Source: Candidatus Bathyoplasma sp. NZ
GTDB taxonomy: Bacteria > Bacillota_I > Bacilli_A > MAG-NZ
Length of the DNA stretch: 64,000 nucleotides
Direction: 5' to 3'
Assembly: GCA_013332095.1 (NCBI GenBank)
Contig: JABENI010000007.1
Coordinates: forward strand, 62,001-126,000
Part shown: piece by piece, positions 53,336-60,118 of the stretch
Layout: each line of letters begins with the position of its first letter
Position numbering within the stretch: position 1 is the stretch's first letter
The notes under the pieces: model-generated
Seen by the model: only the letters and a program-made list of their open reading frames with translations
Database searches by the model: none
Told to the model about the DNA's origin: nothing
Position numbers and translations under genes: made by a program

Positions 53336-54940
53336 ATGAAAAATAAAAGTTTATTTTTAATTTTACTGATGATTTTAACGATTCCTTCGTTAAAAGCAGC
53401 CGAGGAAACTACAGATATTGTAGTTGAAGAAGAATTATTAGATCCAGGATTAAAAAAAGGTGATTTTTTCTATTTTACTGATAAAGCAACCGAAAATCTG
53501 GATTTATTTTTCACGTTTGACAGAAAAGAAAAATTAGAAAAAAGATTAAAATATGTTAATGAGAGATTAGCGGAATCAAATGCTTTATATGATGAAAATA
53601 AAGAGGAATATGCTAATGAAACACTCGATGAGTATATTTTAGAATTAGAACGAACAACAGAACTTATAAGTGAAGATTTACTAGCAGGTATAAATCAGGA
53701 AGATTTAATTGAAGAGATTAATCGATTGAATGACAGAAGTGATGCAATTATTGAAACAAAAGTTAAAAATGAAAAAGTAAAAGAAAAATTAGAAAATAAA
53801 AAAGCAGATATTTTATTAACAACTTTAGCAGCTGATAAATATGGTGAAAAAGAAACAGCAGAAAAAGTTAAAAGCTTAAGAGAAGAAGGTAAAGAATTTA
53901 AAGAAATTTCTAAAATTATAGAACTTTCTGAACTTAGTGGATTAACTATAGAAGAGATTAAAACTAGATTAGAAACTATTTCTTATGAAGAATTACTTAT
54001 TGAATTAGGTTACACAACTGGAGATGTAATTAGTAAATCAATTGAAGATAAAATCCAACATTTTCAAACTAGAATAGAATCAGATACAGCAAATGATGTT
54101 TCAAAAGAAAAATTAACAGAACTTATAACTCAATTCCAAGTTAGAAAAGATGTAAATCAAGCAAAAACTGTAGTAAAACAATTATTTGAAGAAACTAGAC
54201 AACTTTTAGATGATGAAACATTAACTGAGGAAGAAAAAACTGTTTTAAGAGAGCAAATGGATGAAATTAAACTTCAAAAAAAAGAAATAATCAAAAATAG
54301 TCGTAGAAAAACAACTGAAAATACAAAAAATAAACAATCACTTGAAGATGCAATAAATAAAATGAAAAATGATTATAAAATTGATTCAAGAGATGATCAA
54401 ACTGAGACTACTGAATACGCTACTGAAGATATATTAAATAAAAAAATTGTTGCATTAAGAGAGAGGTACTCAAATGCTGGAACAACTCTAGATCCGGTTG
54501 AAAGTTTACTAAGAACTTATTATGCAAATGGCCAAGTTTCGGTAACTGCATTAGAAGAAAAAATTGAAGAGTTGGAAAATACTTATTTACGCGATGATAC
54601 AGATATAGATGATGATGCTACAACAGACACAGATGATGACACTACAACAGACACAGATGATGACACTACAACAGATACCGATGATGCTACAACGGATACA
54701 GACAACGACACTACAACGGATACCGATGATGACACTACAACAGACACAGATGATGACACTACAACAGATACAGACGATGACACTACAACGGATACAGACG
54801 ATGACACTACAACGGATACAGACGATGACACTACAACAGATACCGATGATGATCCTACAACGGATACAGACGATGACCCTACAACAGATACCGACGATGA
54901 CACTACAACAGATACCGATGAAGGAACTGTTAATCAATAA
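53336..54940 (+). CDS. Secreted DUF5667-like protein with Asp/Thr repeat tail
   Basis: The 534-residue protein has a signal peptide (residues 1-21, ending SLKA), an alpha-helical DUF5667-like domain beginning DPGLKKGDFFYFTDKATENLDLFFTFDRKEKLEKRLKYVNERLAE, and long Lys/Glu-rich helices likely to form coiled coil (residues about 90-350). Residues about 422-530 are tandem DDTTTDTD units, 24 bases each with some 21-base units. No LPXTG motif or C-terminal membrane segment is seen (it ends DEGTVNQ), so it is secreted or held by charge. The Asp-rich tail may bind calcium. Confidence 0.75.
   Translation: MKNKSLFLILLMILTIPSLKAAEETTDIVVEEELLDPGLKKGDFFYFTDKATENLDLFFTFDRKEKLEKRLKYVNERLAESNALYDENKEEYANETLDEYILELERTTELISEDLLAGINQEDLIEEINRLNDRSDAIIETKVKNEKVKEKLENKKADILLTTLAADKYGEKETAEKVKSLREEGKEFKEISKIIELSELSGLTIEEIKTRLETISYEELLIELGYTTGDVISKSIEDKIQHFQTRIESDTANDVSKEKLTELITQFQVRKDVNQAKTVVKQLFEETRQLLDDETLTEEEKTVLREQMDEIKLQKKEIIKNSRRKTTENTKNKQSLEDAINKMKNDYKIDSRDDQTETTEYATEDILNKKIVALRERYSNAGTTLDPVESLLRTYYANGQVSVTALEEKIEELENTYLRDDTDIDDDATTDTDDDTTTDTDDDTTTDTDDATTDTDNDTTTDTDDDTTTDTDDDTTTDTDDDTTTDTDDDTTTDTDDDTTTDTDDDPTTDTDDDPTTDTDDDTTTDTDEGTVNQ
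54600..54921 (+). repeat. 24-bp minisatellite encoding DDTTTDTD
   Basis: About thirteen tandem 21- or 24-base units encode Asp/Thr repeats. All units keep the frame, so changes in copy number vary tail length without truncation. Open frames on the other strand and in other frames of this stretch are by-products of the repeat. Confidence 0.9.
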
Positions 54941-55212: not shown

Positions 55213-57072
55213 ATGAGCAAACTAAAATTTAAAACAGAATCAAAAAAATTATTAGATTTAATGATTAACTCTATTTATACAAATAAAGAAATATTTATAA
55301 GAGAGTTAATATCAAATGCATCAGATGCAATAGATAAATATCATTTTAATTCATTAACTGACAAACTAAAATCACGAGAATACGAAATTTTTGTCTCAAT
55401 AGAACAAGAAAAAAGAACTATTACTATTAAAGATAACGGTATCGGCATGACTTTAGAAGAATTAAAAAACAATTTAGGAACAATAGCAAGAAGTGGTTCA
55501 AAAGAATTTATTGAAAAATTAGGAAATAAGGCAGATCTTGATGTAATTGGTCAATTTGGAGTTGGTTTTTATGCTAGTTTCATGGTATCTGACAAAGTAG
55601 AAGTTATAACTAAAAGCCCATATTCAAAAACAGCTTATAAATGGTCGAGTTTAGGACAAGATGAATATGAAGTAAAAGAGCTAGATGCTGATCTAGAAGG
55701 TACTGAAATTACGCTGTATTTGCGTGAAGATAATGAAGACTATAAATATTCAACATTTTTAAATGAAAGCAAAATTAAACAATTAATTACTAATTATTCG
55801 GACTATATTAAATATCCTATCAAAATGGAACTAACTAAAACGGTAGATGAAAAAGAAGTTAAAGAAGTTGAAATTATTAATTCAATGAAACCAATTTGGA
55901 AAAAAAACAAATCAGAAATTACCGAAGAAGAAAAAAATAATTTTTACAAAAATCAGTTTTCTGATTACGAAGATCCACTGATTACCATTCACACGAGAGT
56001 AGAAGGATTATTAACATATGACGCGATGATTTTCATTCCTAAAAGAGCTCCCTTTAACTTAAATAGTAAAAACTTTGAAAAAGGATTACAACTATTCTCA
56101 AAAGGAGTATTTATTAAAGAAAATTGCTCAGAATTAGTTCCTGAATGGATGTTATTTTCTAGAGGATTGATTGATTCAAGCGATTTATCTTTAAATATTT
56201 CTCGTGAAATGGTTCAACAGTCAAACCAGCTAACTAATATTGCTAATGCAGTTGAGAAAAAGGTCAAAAATGTGCTTAAAAAGACTTTAGAGAAAGATTT
56301 CGATAAGTACTTAGAGTTTTGGAAATTGTACGGTTTAAATTTAAAATATGGCATTTATGAGTCAATGGGAGCTAAATGCGAATTTTTACAAGATTTAATA
56401 ATTTATGAAACTAGCCATAACAGTTACACCACGATTGCCGATTATGTCAAGCGGATGAAAGAAAATCAAAAAGTTATTTATTACGCTGTAGGAAAAAACA
56501 AAGAACAAATTTCATCTTTACCACAGATGGATATGTTAAAAGAATTAGACTATGAAGTTATTTATATGACTGATGATATCGATGAATTTGTTGTTACAAC
56601 TATCAACGATTATAACGGTGTTTCTTTTCAATCAATTACTAAAGGTGATTTAGACTTAGCTACTGAAGAAAAGAAAAAAGAAGTCGAAGAAAAAGCTGTT
56701 GAATTTAAAGATTTATTAGAAGTAATTAAATCTAGTTTAGGTGATAAAGTTGTTAAAGTTATTTTATCAACTAGATTAAAAGATTCACCAGTTTGTTTAG
56801 TGGCTGATGAAGGTATTTCTTTTGAAATGGAAAAAGTATATTCACAAATTCCAGGGCAAAGCGGTATCAAAGCTGGTAGAATATTAGAAATTAATCCAGA
56901 GCATAAATTATTTGATGCTCTGCAAAAATTACATCAAAAATATCCTTTAAGCGTAAATAAATATGCTGATTTATTATATACACAGGCCCTATTAATAGAA
57001 GGATTACCTGTAGAAAACCCTATCGAATTCAGCAATAAGATGTGTGAATTGATTATTGAAACAGCAAAATAA
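55213..57072 (+). CDS. htpG: Chaperone HtpG (Hsp90)
   Basis: The 619-residue chaperone has the GHKL ATPase N-domain (IFIRELISNASDAIDKYHF, IKDNGIGMT, GTIARSGSKEF, GQFGVGFYASFMV), the middle domain with the catalytic Arg in SLNISREMVQQS, and the C-terminal dimerisation domain. It folds client proteins under stress. The gene is monocistronic with its own promoter and terminator. Length matches the bacterial family (about 620-630). Confidence 0.96.
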   Translation: MSKLKFKTESKKLLDLMINSIYTNKEIFIRELISNASDAIDKYHFNSLTDKLKSREYEIFVSIEQEKRTITIKDNGIGMTLEELKNNLGTIARSGSKEFIEKLGNKADLDVIGQFGVGFYASFMVSDKVEVITKSPYSKTAYKWSSLGQDEYEVKELDADLEGTEITLYLREDNEDYKYSTFLNESKIKQLITNYSDYIKYPIKMELTKTVDEKEVKEVEIINSMKPIWKKNKSEITEEEKNNFYKNQFSDYEDPLITIHTRVEGLLTYDAMIFIPKRAPFNLNSKNFEKGLQLFSKGVFIKENCSELVPEWMLFSRGLIDSSDLSLNISREMVQQSNQLTNIANAVEKKVKNVLKKTLEKDFDKYLEFWKLYGLNLKYGIYESMGAKCEFLQDLIIYETSHNSYTTIADYVKRMKENQKVIYYAVGKNKEQISSLPQMDMLKELDYEVIYMTDDIDEFVVTTINDYNGVSFQSITKGDLDLATEEKKKEVEEKAVEFKDLLEVIKSSLGDKVVKVILSTRLKDSPVCLVADEGISFEMEKVYSQIPGQSGIKAGRILEINPEHKLFDALQKLHQKYPLSVNKYADLLYTQALLIEGLPVENPIEFSNKMCELIIETAK

Positions 57073-57104: not shown

Positions 57105-57114
57105 GTTGAAATAT

Positions 57115-57122
57115 GTTATAAT
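57115..57122 (+). promoter_or_regulatory. Extended -10 promoter of the ArsC/YusI-like gene
   Basis: The sequence TGTTATAAT contains an extended -10 (TG then TATAAT at 57117-57122). No good -35 lies 16-18 bases upstream, because the htpG terminator is there. The RBS GAGGGGTGA follows at 57130. Confidence 0.5.
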
Positions 57123-57141
57123 TTTAAAGAGGGGTGATTAG

Positions 57142-57495
57142 ATGATAAAAATTTACGGAGTCAATACTTGAAGTAGTGTTAGAAAAGCTGTCAGCTTTTT
57201 TAAACAAAAAAATATTAATCACCAAGTAATTGATTTAAAAAGAGAAGTTCCAACAAAAGAAGAAATAAAATTATTTCATGAGGATAGTGGTTTAGATATT
57301 AAAAATTTTTTTAATACCAACGGAAAAGTCTATAAAGAACTAGGATTGAAAGATAAACTTGATTCACTAACACTAGATGAAAAATACGGTTTGTTAGTAA
57401 ACAATGGGATGTTAATTAAAAGACCGTTAGTTGTTGATATTGATAAAATTGTTTTAGGCTACAAAGAAGATAGTTACATTGCTATTTGGGGTTAG
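57142..57495 (+). CDS. ArsC/YusI-like thioredoxin-fold protein with in-frame TGA (candidate selenoprotein)
   Basis: From ATG 57142 to TAG 57495 there are 117 codons with one internal TGA (57169-57171, codon 10). The rest matches the ArsC/Spx/YusI family along its length: MIKIYGVNT, then SSVRKAVSFFKQKNINHQVIDLKREVPTKEEI, GLDIKNFFNTNGKVYKELGLKDKL and GMLIKRPLVVD. Family members have the catalytic Cys at this codon (C-x-x-C-R-K-A); here it is TGA and the second Cys is Val. TGA is a stop elsewhere in this window, so the gene is either a selenocysteine gene or a very recent nonsense mutant at the catalytic codon. RBS GAGGGGTGA is strong. A SECIS-like hairpin follows the TGA. Role: thiol/selenol redox chemistry, unknown substrate; true arsenate reduction is not implied. 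Confidence 0.75.
57179..57203 (+). promoter_or_regulatory. SECIS-like hairpin after the in-frame TGA
   Basis: TTAGAAAAGC pairs with GCTTTTTTAA (10 bp, one G-T) around a UGUCA loop. The stem starts 8 bases after the TGA; 17 bases separate the TGA from the loop. Known bacterial SECIS elements have a stem of about 4-16 bp, an apical loop 16-37 bases after UGA and a G within the first two loop bases; all fit. The loop GU matches the GU that SelB contacts in the E. coli fdhF element. Confidence 0.65.
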
Positions 57496-57753: not shown

Positions 57754-57782
57754 ATTTAAAAGTATTTTGAGGGGATGATAGT

Positions 57783-57863
57783 ATGAGATTTATAATTAAG
57801 GAAAAATCATTTATAATTCTTTATCTTTTTAGTAAACGAATGTTAGGGCGAAATATTAACTAA
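57783..57863 (+). CDS. Possible 26-residue leader peptide before metY
   Basis: An ATG with a good RBS (GAGGGGATGA) opens a 26-codon frame that ends 49 bases before metY. The peptide is basic and hydrophobic (RFIIKEKSFIILYLFSKRM). It contains no run of Met or Cys codons, so ordinary attenuation is not obvious. It may be a small membrane peptide or chance. Confidence 0.3.
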   Translation: MRFIIKEKSFIILYLFSKRMLGRNIN

Positions 57864-57912
57864 CTATAAAATTCAAAAAAACTAAAAAAGAAAATATAAA
57901 GGAGATTTAAAA

Positions 57913-59193
57913 ATGGAAACAAAAAATTATAGTATAGAAACATTATGTGTAACATCAACAGAAGAATTTGTTGATGGAGAACCAAGAGTATTTCCGATAG
58001 TCCAAAGTACTACTTATAATTACAAAGATACAGAGTACATCGCTGACCTGTTTGACTTAAAAAAACTTGGTCACATGTATTCAAGAATTTCCAACCCTAC
58101 TGTCGGAGCGTTTGAAAATAAAATGGCAGCATTAGAAGGTGGAGTCGGTGCAGTAGGAACTTCATCAGGACAAGGTGCTTTACAGATGGCGATATTAACT
58201 ATCTGCGATGCCGGAGCTCATATTGTTGCTTCTTCAACATTATACGGAGGAAATATTACTCTACTTGGTTCATCTTTAGCAAAATTAGGAATTACTACAA
58301 CATTTGTTTCCCCTGAGGCAAGTGCAGATGAAATAAAAAGTTATTTTCAAGAAAATACCAAAGCTTTATTTGCTGAAACTGTAGGGAATCCTAAAATGAA
58401 TGTCTTAGATCTTGAAAAATTCGGTAAAATAGCTAAAGAGCAAGGAGTACCTTTCATCGTAGATAATACCCTAGCTACTCCATATTTATGTAGACCAATT
58501 GAGTACGGAGCAAATATCATTACTCATTCCGCTACTAAATATATCGATGGTCAAGCAACATGTGTTGGTGGGGTTGTAGTCGATGCCGGAAACTTTGACT
58601 GGACTAATGGAAAATTCCCAGGATTAGTAGAACCCGATGCAACTTATCATGGACTAAGTTATACTGAATCATTTGGAAATTTAGCCTATATTATTAAAGC
58701 AAGAACTCATATTTTAAGAGATTTTGGTCAAACGATGAGTGCATTTAACGCTTTTATCTACAATAGAGGGTTAGAAACTTTACATTTAAGAATGGAAAGA
58801 CATGGTCAAAATGCTTTAGAAGTGGCTAAGTATTTACAAAACCACAATAAAGTTGCTTGGGTTGAATATTCACATTTAGAAGCAAGTGATAGCTATAAAT
58901 TAGCACAAAAATACCTTCCTAAAGGTGGAAATGGTGTTGTATTATTTGGTTTAAAAGGTGGACATGAAGCAGGAATAAAATTAGGAAAAGTTTTAAATTT
59001 AATCAATGTAGCAGTTCATATTGGTGACAGTAGAACAGCAATTTTACATCCAGCTAGTAGTTCACATAGACAATTATCAGCAGAAGACCAAATTAAAGCA
59101 GGTGTATCACCTGAAGCGGTTAGAATTAATGTCGGAATTGAAAATGTGGCTGATATTATTAAAGATTTAGAAAATGGGTTAAAGGAATTGTAA
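57913..59193 (+). CDS. metY: O-acetylhomoserine sulfhydrylase
   Basis: The 426-residue PLP enzyme of the Cys/Met metabolism family turns O-acetylhomoserine and sulfide into homocysteine. It has FPIVQSTTYNYKD near the start, MYSRISNPTVGAFENKMAALEGG, and the PLP lysine in THSATKYIDGQATCVGG (Lys209). The length and the long C-terminal half (VAVHIGDSRTAILHPASSSHRQL) mark MetY rather than MetB/CGS (about 380). RBS AAGGAGA. metA follows by one base. Confidence 0.95.
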   Translation: METKNYSIETLCVTSTEEFVDGEPRVFPIVQSTTYNYKDTEYIADLFDLKKLGHMYSRISNPTVGAFENKMAALEGGVGAVGTSSGQGALQMAILTICDAGAHIVASSTLYGGNITLLGSSLAKLGITTTFVSPEASADEIKSYFQENTKALFAETVGNPKMNVLDLEKFGKIAKEQGVPFIVDNTLATPYLCRPIEYGANIITHSATKYIDGQATCVGGVVVDAGNFDWTNGKFPGLVEPDATYHGLSYTESFGNLAYIIKARTHILRDFGQTMSAFNAFIYNRGLETLHLRMERHGQNALEVAKYLQNHNKVAWVEYSHLEASDSYKLAQKYLPKGGNGVVLFGLKGGHEAGIKLGKVLNLINVAVHIGDSRTAILHPASSSHRQLSAEDQIKAGVSPEAVRINVGIENVADIIKDLENGLKEL

Positions 59194-59194
59194 A

Positions 59195-60118
59195 ATGCCA
59201 GTCATTATACCGAGTTTACTACCTGCTAGTGAAACTTTAAAAAAAGAAAAAATATTTGTTATTAATACTGAAAGAGCAGTAACTCAAGATATTAGACCTT
59301 TAGAGGTGGCGTTAGTTAATTTAATGCCCACAAAAATAGTTACTGAAACACAAATATTAAGAATGCTCAGTAGTTCACCAATTCAAATAAATGTTGATTA
59401 CATCCACCCAGAAAGTTATTTATCTAAAAATACTTCCAGCAGTCATATGGAGACTTTTTATAAAACATTTGCGCAAATTAAAGATAAAAAATACGATGGC
59501 TTAATAATTACCGGAGCACCAGTTGAACATTTAGCGTTTGAAGAAGTAACCTACTGGGAAGAATTAAAAAAAATAATGGATTATGCCAGTAATAATGTTT
59601 ATTCAACTTTACATATATGCTGGGGAGCTCAAGCAGGACTATATCATTACTATGGTATTGAAAAAGAGCCATTAAATAAAAAACAGTTTGGAGTTTTTGA
59701 GCATATCGCAACTTCATCGACAAACGATTTGTTAAGAGGTTTTGATGACACGTTTTACGTTCCTCATTCAAGACATACAACAATCAGTAAAAAAGAAGTT
59801 GAAAAAATCAAAGAATTAGAGGTATTGGCGTACTCTAATGAAGTAGGATTACATTTAATCGCTACTAAGGATAACAGAAGAATTTTTGCTGTAGGACACA
59901 GTGAATACGATAGAGACACTTTAAAAAAAGAATACGATAGAGATGTTTCTACAAACAAAGAAATTGCCATACCTAAAAACTATTTTTTAAATGATGATCC
60001 AAAGAAAACACCAACTGTAAGATGGCAAGCACATGGAAATATGTTTTTTAGAAATTGGGTAAATATCATCTATCAAAAAACACCGTTTGATATTAACAAA
60101 ATAACAAAAATAAAATAA
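59195..60118 (+). CDS. metA: Homoserine O-acetyltransferase, MetA type
   Basis: The 307-residue enzyme acylates homoserine. The catalytic Cys is residue 142 (HICWGAQAG), and the Glu and His of the triad lie in the later HSEYDR and VPHSRHT segments. Residue 111, which decides the acyl donor, is Glu (TGAPVE), as in the acetyl-CoA-using Bacillus MetA; E. coli has Gly there and uses succinyl-CoA. Acetyl use agrees with the adjacent metY. The ATG is one base after the metY stop, so the two are one operon. Confidence 0.95.
   Translation: MPVIIPSLLPASETLKKEKIFVINTERAVTQDIRPLEVALVNLMPTKIVTETQILRMLSSSPIQINVDYIHPESYLSKNTSSSHMETFYKTFAQIKDKKYDGLIITGAPVEHLAFEEVTYWEELKKIMDYASNNVYSTLHICWGAQAGLYHYYGIEKEPLNKKQFGVFEHIATSSTNDLLRGFDDTFYVPHSRHTTISKKEVEKIKELEVLAYSNEVGLHLIATKDNRRIFAVGHSEYDRDTLKKEYDRDVSTNKEIAIPKNYFLNDDPKKTPTVRWQAHGNMFFRNWVNIIYQKTPFDINKITKIK

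Follow-up and report, generated by a model that had tools for sequence, protein, structure and literature searches.

An ArsC/YusI-like gene in the 64,000-nucleotide stretch of Candidatus Bathyoplasma sp. NZ DNA analysed here (the window, to whose positions all unprefixed coordinates refer) is interrupted by an in-frame TGA at its tenth codon, and it raises the question of whether this triplet marks a broken gene, a sense codon of a deviant genetic code or a site of selenocysteine (Sec) insertion. An earlier note on this DNA had proposed the last of these. That reading is supported by the match between the UGA and a conserved cysteine, by a hairpin downstream of it, by the Sec machinery of the genome and by the presence of other selenoprotein genes, and we consider it very probable that UGA codon 10 encodes Sec in a functional gene.

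The gene and its tenth codon

The gene (57142-57495) lies on the forward strand, as do the TGA, the expression signals and the hairpin described below. It runs from the ATG at 57142 through the TGA at codon 10 (57169-57171) and 107 more codons to a TAG at 57493-57495, 117 codons in all, and contains no further in-frame stop. Its translation, MIKIYGVNT-U-SSVRKAVSFF..., matches the Pfam ArsC family PF03960 at 5.6e-18, which confirms the interrupted ArsC/YusI-like gene of the earlier note, and belongs to TIGR01617 (ArsC-related, YusI/Spx/MgsR) with 99.3 bits against a cut-off of 75.05 over residues 2-116. The gene stands alone between htpG (55213-57072) and metY/metA (57913-60118). The strong ribosome-binding site claimed for it is borne out by a Shine-Dalgarno region AAAGAGGGGTG (57126-57136) that can be read directly from the sequence, with AGGGG (57130-57134) located 7 nt before the ATG. 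The -10 box that the gene was thought to own held up in part: a probable extended -10 element, TGtTATAAT, can be read at 57114-57122, but no promoter with this element was listed by the sigma-70 promoter scan.

Elsewhere around the locus, the region 57767-57865 upstream of metY (57913) contains a promoter-like pair (57767-57796) and a short ORF-like stretch and may be a leader or promoter of metY-metA; no Rfam riboswitch reaches the gathering score there, nor does any Rfam family in the 64-kb window. A long low-complexity repeat of the T-T-T-D-T-D-D-D type, open in several frames, occupies 54583-54940 and forms the C-terminus of the protein encoded at 53336-54940, for which no NCBIfam match was obtained at 1e-20.

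Among the 43 homologues with a readable codon at position 10, the triplet is TGT in 33 and TGC in 10 and nothing else, so that the TGA does occupy the catalytic-cysteine codon, as had been claimed. In the window protein, valine takes the place of the second CxxC cysteine (motif USSV). The loss of this cysteine had been pointed out correctly, though it is not unusual, and it is not tied to selenium, since 8 of the 43 homologues with Cys at position 10 also lack the second cysteine (4 V, 3 S, 1 T). Among the other matches listed in three overlapping samples of related genomes (60, 395 and 392), none had an internal TGA. No second genome of the genus was retrieved, the family members G001-G003 gave weak matches only, and a scan of genome contigs yielded just two distant named relatives, both with Cys.

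The integrity of the protein was assessed over the 33 columns in which at least 75% of 38 YusI-type homologues agree. The window protein keeps 24 of these, including the invariant N58, G61 and K93-R94-P95, which, together with the lack of a second in-frame stop, agrees with the earlier description of a tail that is intact and free of other damage. The number retained is nevertheless smaller than in most homologues, and the branch of the window protein in the tree is long (0.85 against a median of 0.39); both observations were counted against the Sec reading. A common origin with those Cys homologues that share V at position 13 (family f8) was considered, but no supported sister of the window protein was recovered in the tree.

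The hairpin and the decoding machinery

The model of the bacterial SECIS element (bSECIS) used here specifies a loop of 3-9 nt, a stem of 4-16 bp, a distance of 16-37 nt from the UGA and a minimum free energy (MFE) of -7.5 kcal/mol or lower, and it needs a G at loop position one or two, after which G or U is frequent (PMC13188914). The hairpin at 57179-57203, to which the earlier note had not referred, falls within all of these bounds, with an 11-pair stem, the 3-nt loop GUC (57190-57192) situated 18 nt past the TGA and an energy of -8.0 kcal/mol; the 47-nt stretch 57169-57215 reaches -9.3 kcal/mol with an MFE z-score of -2.48. Across the large ORFs of the window, 34 of 17,558 codons (0.19%) pass the strict model and 85 of 17,558 its loose form, while of the 142 Cys codons in the window one passes loosely and none strictly. 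A comparable hairpin is absent from the equivalent place in the Cys homologues (0 of 43, none reaching even -6 kcal/mol). Comparable TGA read-through frames number six in the window and a SECIS-like hairpin follows only the TGA at 57169; this, together with its fall on the Cys codon of all 43 homologues, makes the TGA more than chance.

The distance of the loop from the UGA, 18 nt, can be set beside the 18 nt of GrdB and the 17 nt of SelD in the same genome. The hairpin is A-U rich with two G-C pairs only, which was counted against the Sec reading. An intrinsic terminator was also considered for this structure inside the gene and was rejected, the terminator scan having called none. As for sensitivity, the simple hairpin model failed to recover the SECIS of GrdA and therefore overlooks some true elements; according to reviews, some known selenoprotein genes fail the simple bSECIS model (PMC9312934).

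The Sec machinery, on whose presence the earlier note had made its reading depend, is complete on contig C29, where tRNA-Sec, selD, selA and selB stand in a row with selD directly behind tRNA-Sec. The tRNA-Sec scores 67.8 bits (cut-off 47) and has the anticodon TCA (UCA), and selA and selB reach 565 and 328 bits, respectively. SelD itself carries an in-frame TGA (STCGG-U-AGK), and contig C44 holds grdA (ECFV-U-TAAG) and a grdB-type gene (LTST-U-GTCT) with one in-frame TGA each, GrdA and GrdB both scoring above their NCBIfam cut-offs. Three classical selenoprotein genes with an in-frame TGA, namely those of SelD, GrdA and GrdB, were thus seen in a genome sampled through family searches and a few stretches. 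Contamination as the source of C29 and C44 is argued against by the same-family relative G002, which has selA and two GrdB-type genes. Within the class, SelA exceeds its cut-off in 10 of 395 sampled genomes, and Mollicutes are described in reviews as being without Sec or SelD (PMC9312934, PMC5029168). The sequence hallmarks of a bacterial selenoprotein, i.e. a UGA on a conserved Cys, a bSECIS, selA, selB, selD and tRNA-Sec, and a UGA that otherwise serves as stop, are accordingly all found for the gene at 57142-57495.

Both contigs hold further features of their own. The glycine/sarcosine-type reductase genes on C44 (L104:1240-3106) comprise grdA and a grdB/grdF-like gene, whose GrdB-type product is matched best by the model for sarcosine GrdF, yet below the cut-off (701 vs 800 bits). 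On C29, tRNA-Sec and the start of selD occur once more in incomplete form (L049:10194-10557): behind a degenerate tRNA-Sec of 32.3 bits lies a selD fragment of 82 residues in which the TGA and the SECIS hairpin are retained. This partial copy is apparently a recombination remnant.

Stop, sense codon or mutation

The selenoprotein reading has to be weighed against two simpler explanations of the TGA, the first being that the organism decodes it as tryptophan (code 4). A selA reading frame with an internal TGA, as in code-4 organisms, does exist in the class, in G195 at least. In the organism itself, however, TGA ends 6 of the 46 large ORFs of the window, release factor 2 is encoded (prfB, 468 bits against a cut-off of 370), the only tRNA-Trp found has the anticodon CCA, the sole UCA tRNA found is tRNA-Sec, and position 10 is Cys and never Trp in the 43 homologues. 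The view that TGA is a normal stop here and code 4 unlikely was thus well founded, and tryptophan decoding, contradicted on each of these counts, was rejected with a probability that we regard as negligible. As an observation on the class, two small genomes of family f3, each a single contig, encode a full-length SelA above cut-off (G195:C1:230176-231528 and G120:C1:225830-227167), the gene of G195 having an in-frame TGA; should TGA stand for Trp in these two, their SelA could have no part in ordinary UGA-Sec decoding. The occurrence of small genomes with such a selA frame in the class sample, and a named Bacillota relative, would place the organism in class Bacilli.

A more serious contender is a nonsense mutation, or an error in the assembly consensus, that turned a Cys codon (TGT/TGC) into TGA, so that the gene would be a young pseudogene or the triplet an error. 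TGA differs from the normal codon by one base, the matches listed in the overlapping genome samples include no relative with TGA, and the long branch in the tree would fit as well. A random nonsense change, on the other hand, would seldom strike this one codon of 117, and it would not bring with it a bSECIS-compliant hairpin at the spacing of the genome's own GrdB and SelD; the genome moreover decodes Sec, and the gene is without other damage. We therefore hold mutation or error to be improbable and retain the reading of codon 10 as Sec.

Predicted fold, possible functions and relation to known ArsC selenoproteins

An AlphaFold model built from three sequences has a pLDDT of 86.8 and a helix at residues 11-22, straight after residue 10, and its best folds in the PDB are 3fz4 (TM 0.86) and 2m46 (TM 0.83). 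A thioredoxin fold of the ArsC/Spx kind is accordingly predicted for the protein, and residue 10 is placed where helix 1 starts. The residue just before the first helix is the usual catalytic position in this fold. Both structures, 3fz4 from Streptococcus mutans and 2m46 from Staphylococcus aureus (SACOL0876), are YusI-like, 43-44% identical over the whole length, and have Cys where the window gene has TGA.

Selenium-containing members of the ArsC superfamily have been described before. They include a UxxS form annotated as arsenate reductase from the Sargasso Sea (PMC1088965) and the Global Ocean Sampling (GOS) data (PMC2398784), UxxC forms (PMC2398784; NF041106 in PMC13188914), and ArsC-like and 'distant ArsC' selenoproteins of deltaproteobacteria (PMC1794560). 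The window protein shares with the ArsC family selenoproteins (arsenate reductase 1 with UxxS, TIGR00014; arsenate reductase 2 with UxxC, cd03032 in GOS; NF041106) the PF03960/COG1393 superfamily and a Sec in the N-terminal redox motif, but differs from them in being UxxV, in being cysteine-free and in scoring below the cut-offs of TIGR00014 (arsenate reductase, glutaredoxin; 47.4 vs 106.05 bits) and of NF041106, the ArsC family (seleno)protein model (14.3 vs 85 bits, with USSV in place of UxxC). The Uxx-star/UXX-star glutaredoxin-like (seleno)proteins NF041114 and NF041212 match only weakly and locally (19.5 vs 72 bits), and their models are about 70 residues long as against the 117 residues of the window protein; to judge from the family names, they presumably work in a similar way, with a Sec in an N-terminal motif and no resolving Cys. 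GrdA, GrdB and SelD of the same genome depend on the common Sec machinery and are otherwise unrelated proteins of classical, widespread selenoprotein families. In a literature search that was not exhaustive, a Sec form was nowhere described for the YusI/TIGR01617 branch, the papers returned being unrelated. On sequence grounds, the protein thus seems to be a new Sec-bearing variant within the known ArsC selenoprotein superfamily, on its YusI/TIGR01617 branch.

For selenium incorporation, chemistry and partner of the ArsC-like protein we infer the following course. SelB charged with Sec-tRNA-Sec would bind the hairpin that closely follows the UGA, and residue 10 would become Sec; if selenium is lacking, translation would yield a 9-residue peptide. 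The 117-residue protein would fold in the ArsC/Spx manner, with its selenolate where helix 1 begins. Sec10 could then attack an oxidised thiol or an oxyanion substrate, candidates being a mixed disulfide, an oxidised residue or arsenate, to give an Se-S or Se-O(X) intermediate, which would be resolved by an external thiol (a small thiol, glutaredoxin or thioredoxin). As the predicted protein has no cysteine at all, a monoselenol oxidoreductase working with an external thiol is the most likely function, and we give a thiol-type oxidoreductase of this kind roughly an even chance of being correct.

Two other functions of a Sec-containing protein were weighed against it. The ArsC superfamily and fold, and the existence of UxxS ArsC-type selenoproteins so annotated (PMC1088965), would suit a selenium-dependent arsenate reductase; the score under the cut-off of the glutaredoxin-type arsenate reductase model and the immediate neighbours thrC, htpG, metY and metA, with no arsenic genes among them, make this unlikely. 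Slightly less likely still is that the selenoprotein is no enzyme and, in the manner of Spx/MgsR, senses redox state and regulates by binding to RNA polymerase, as the name given by NCBIfam to TIGR01617 (Spx/MgsR) and the Spx structures among the fold matches might suggest. The protein lies far below every Spx model (51.1 vs 123, 47 vs 152 and 38 vs 159 bits) and is without the CxxC switch, its closest structures are the ArsC-like 3fz4, 2m46 and 3gkx (38-44% identity vs 21-24% for Spx), and a separate 159-residue ORF of Spx length is located elsewhere in the genome (C15:94471-94797).

Overall, the locus probably represents an unreported subfamily, i.e. a cysteine-free, one-selenol YusI-type ArsC with a UxxV motif, which would have arisen by Cys-to-Sec conversion, would need no resolving cysteine and would have its SECIS within the stretch for the conserved RKA helix, all this among bacteria of a class that rarely decodes Sec. 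Standard annotation would read the gene at 57142-57495 as broken and throw it out as a pseudogene. As a selenoprotein gene, it would exemplify a Cys-to-Sec conversion that took place in nature and has a SECIS of its own, and it would add a Sec branch to the ArsC/YusI/Spx superfamily, where most Cys members of the YusI type have no known substrate. With no Cys elsewhere in the protein, a naturally occurring Sec would single out residue 10 as the only catalytic chalcogen, and this selenol could thereby serve as a clean handle on the reaction.
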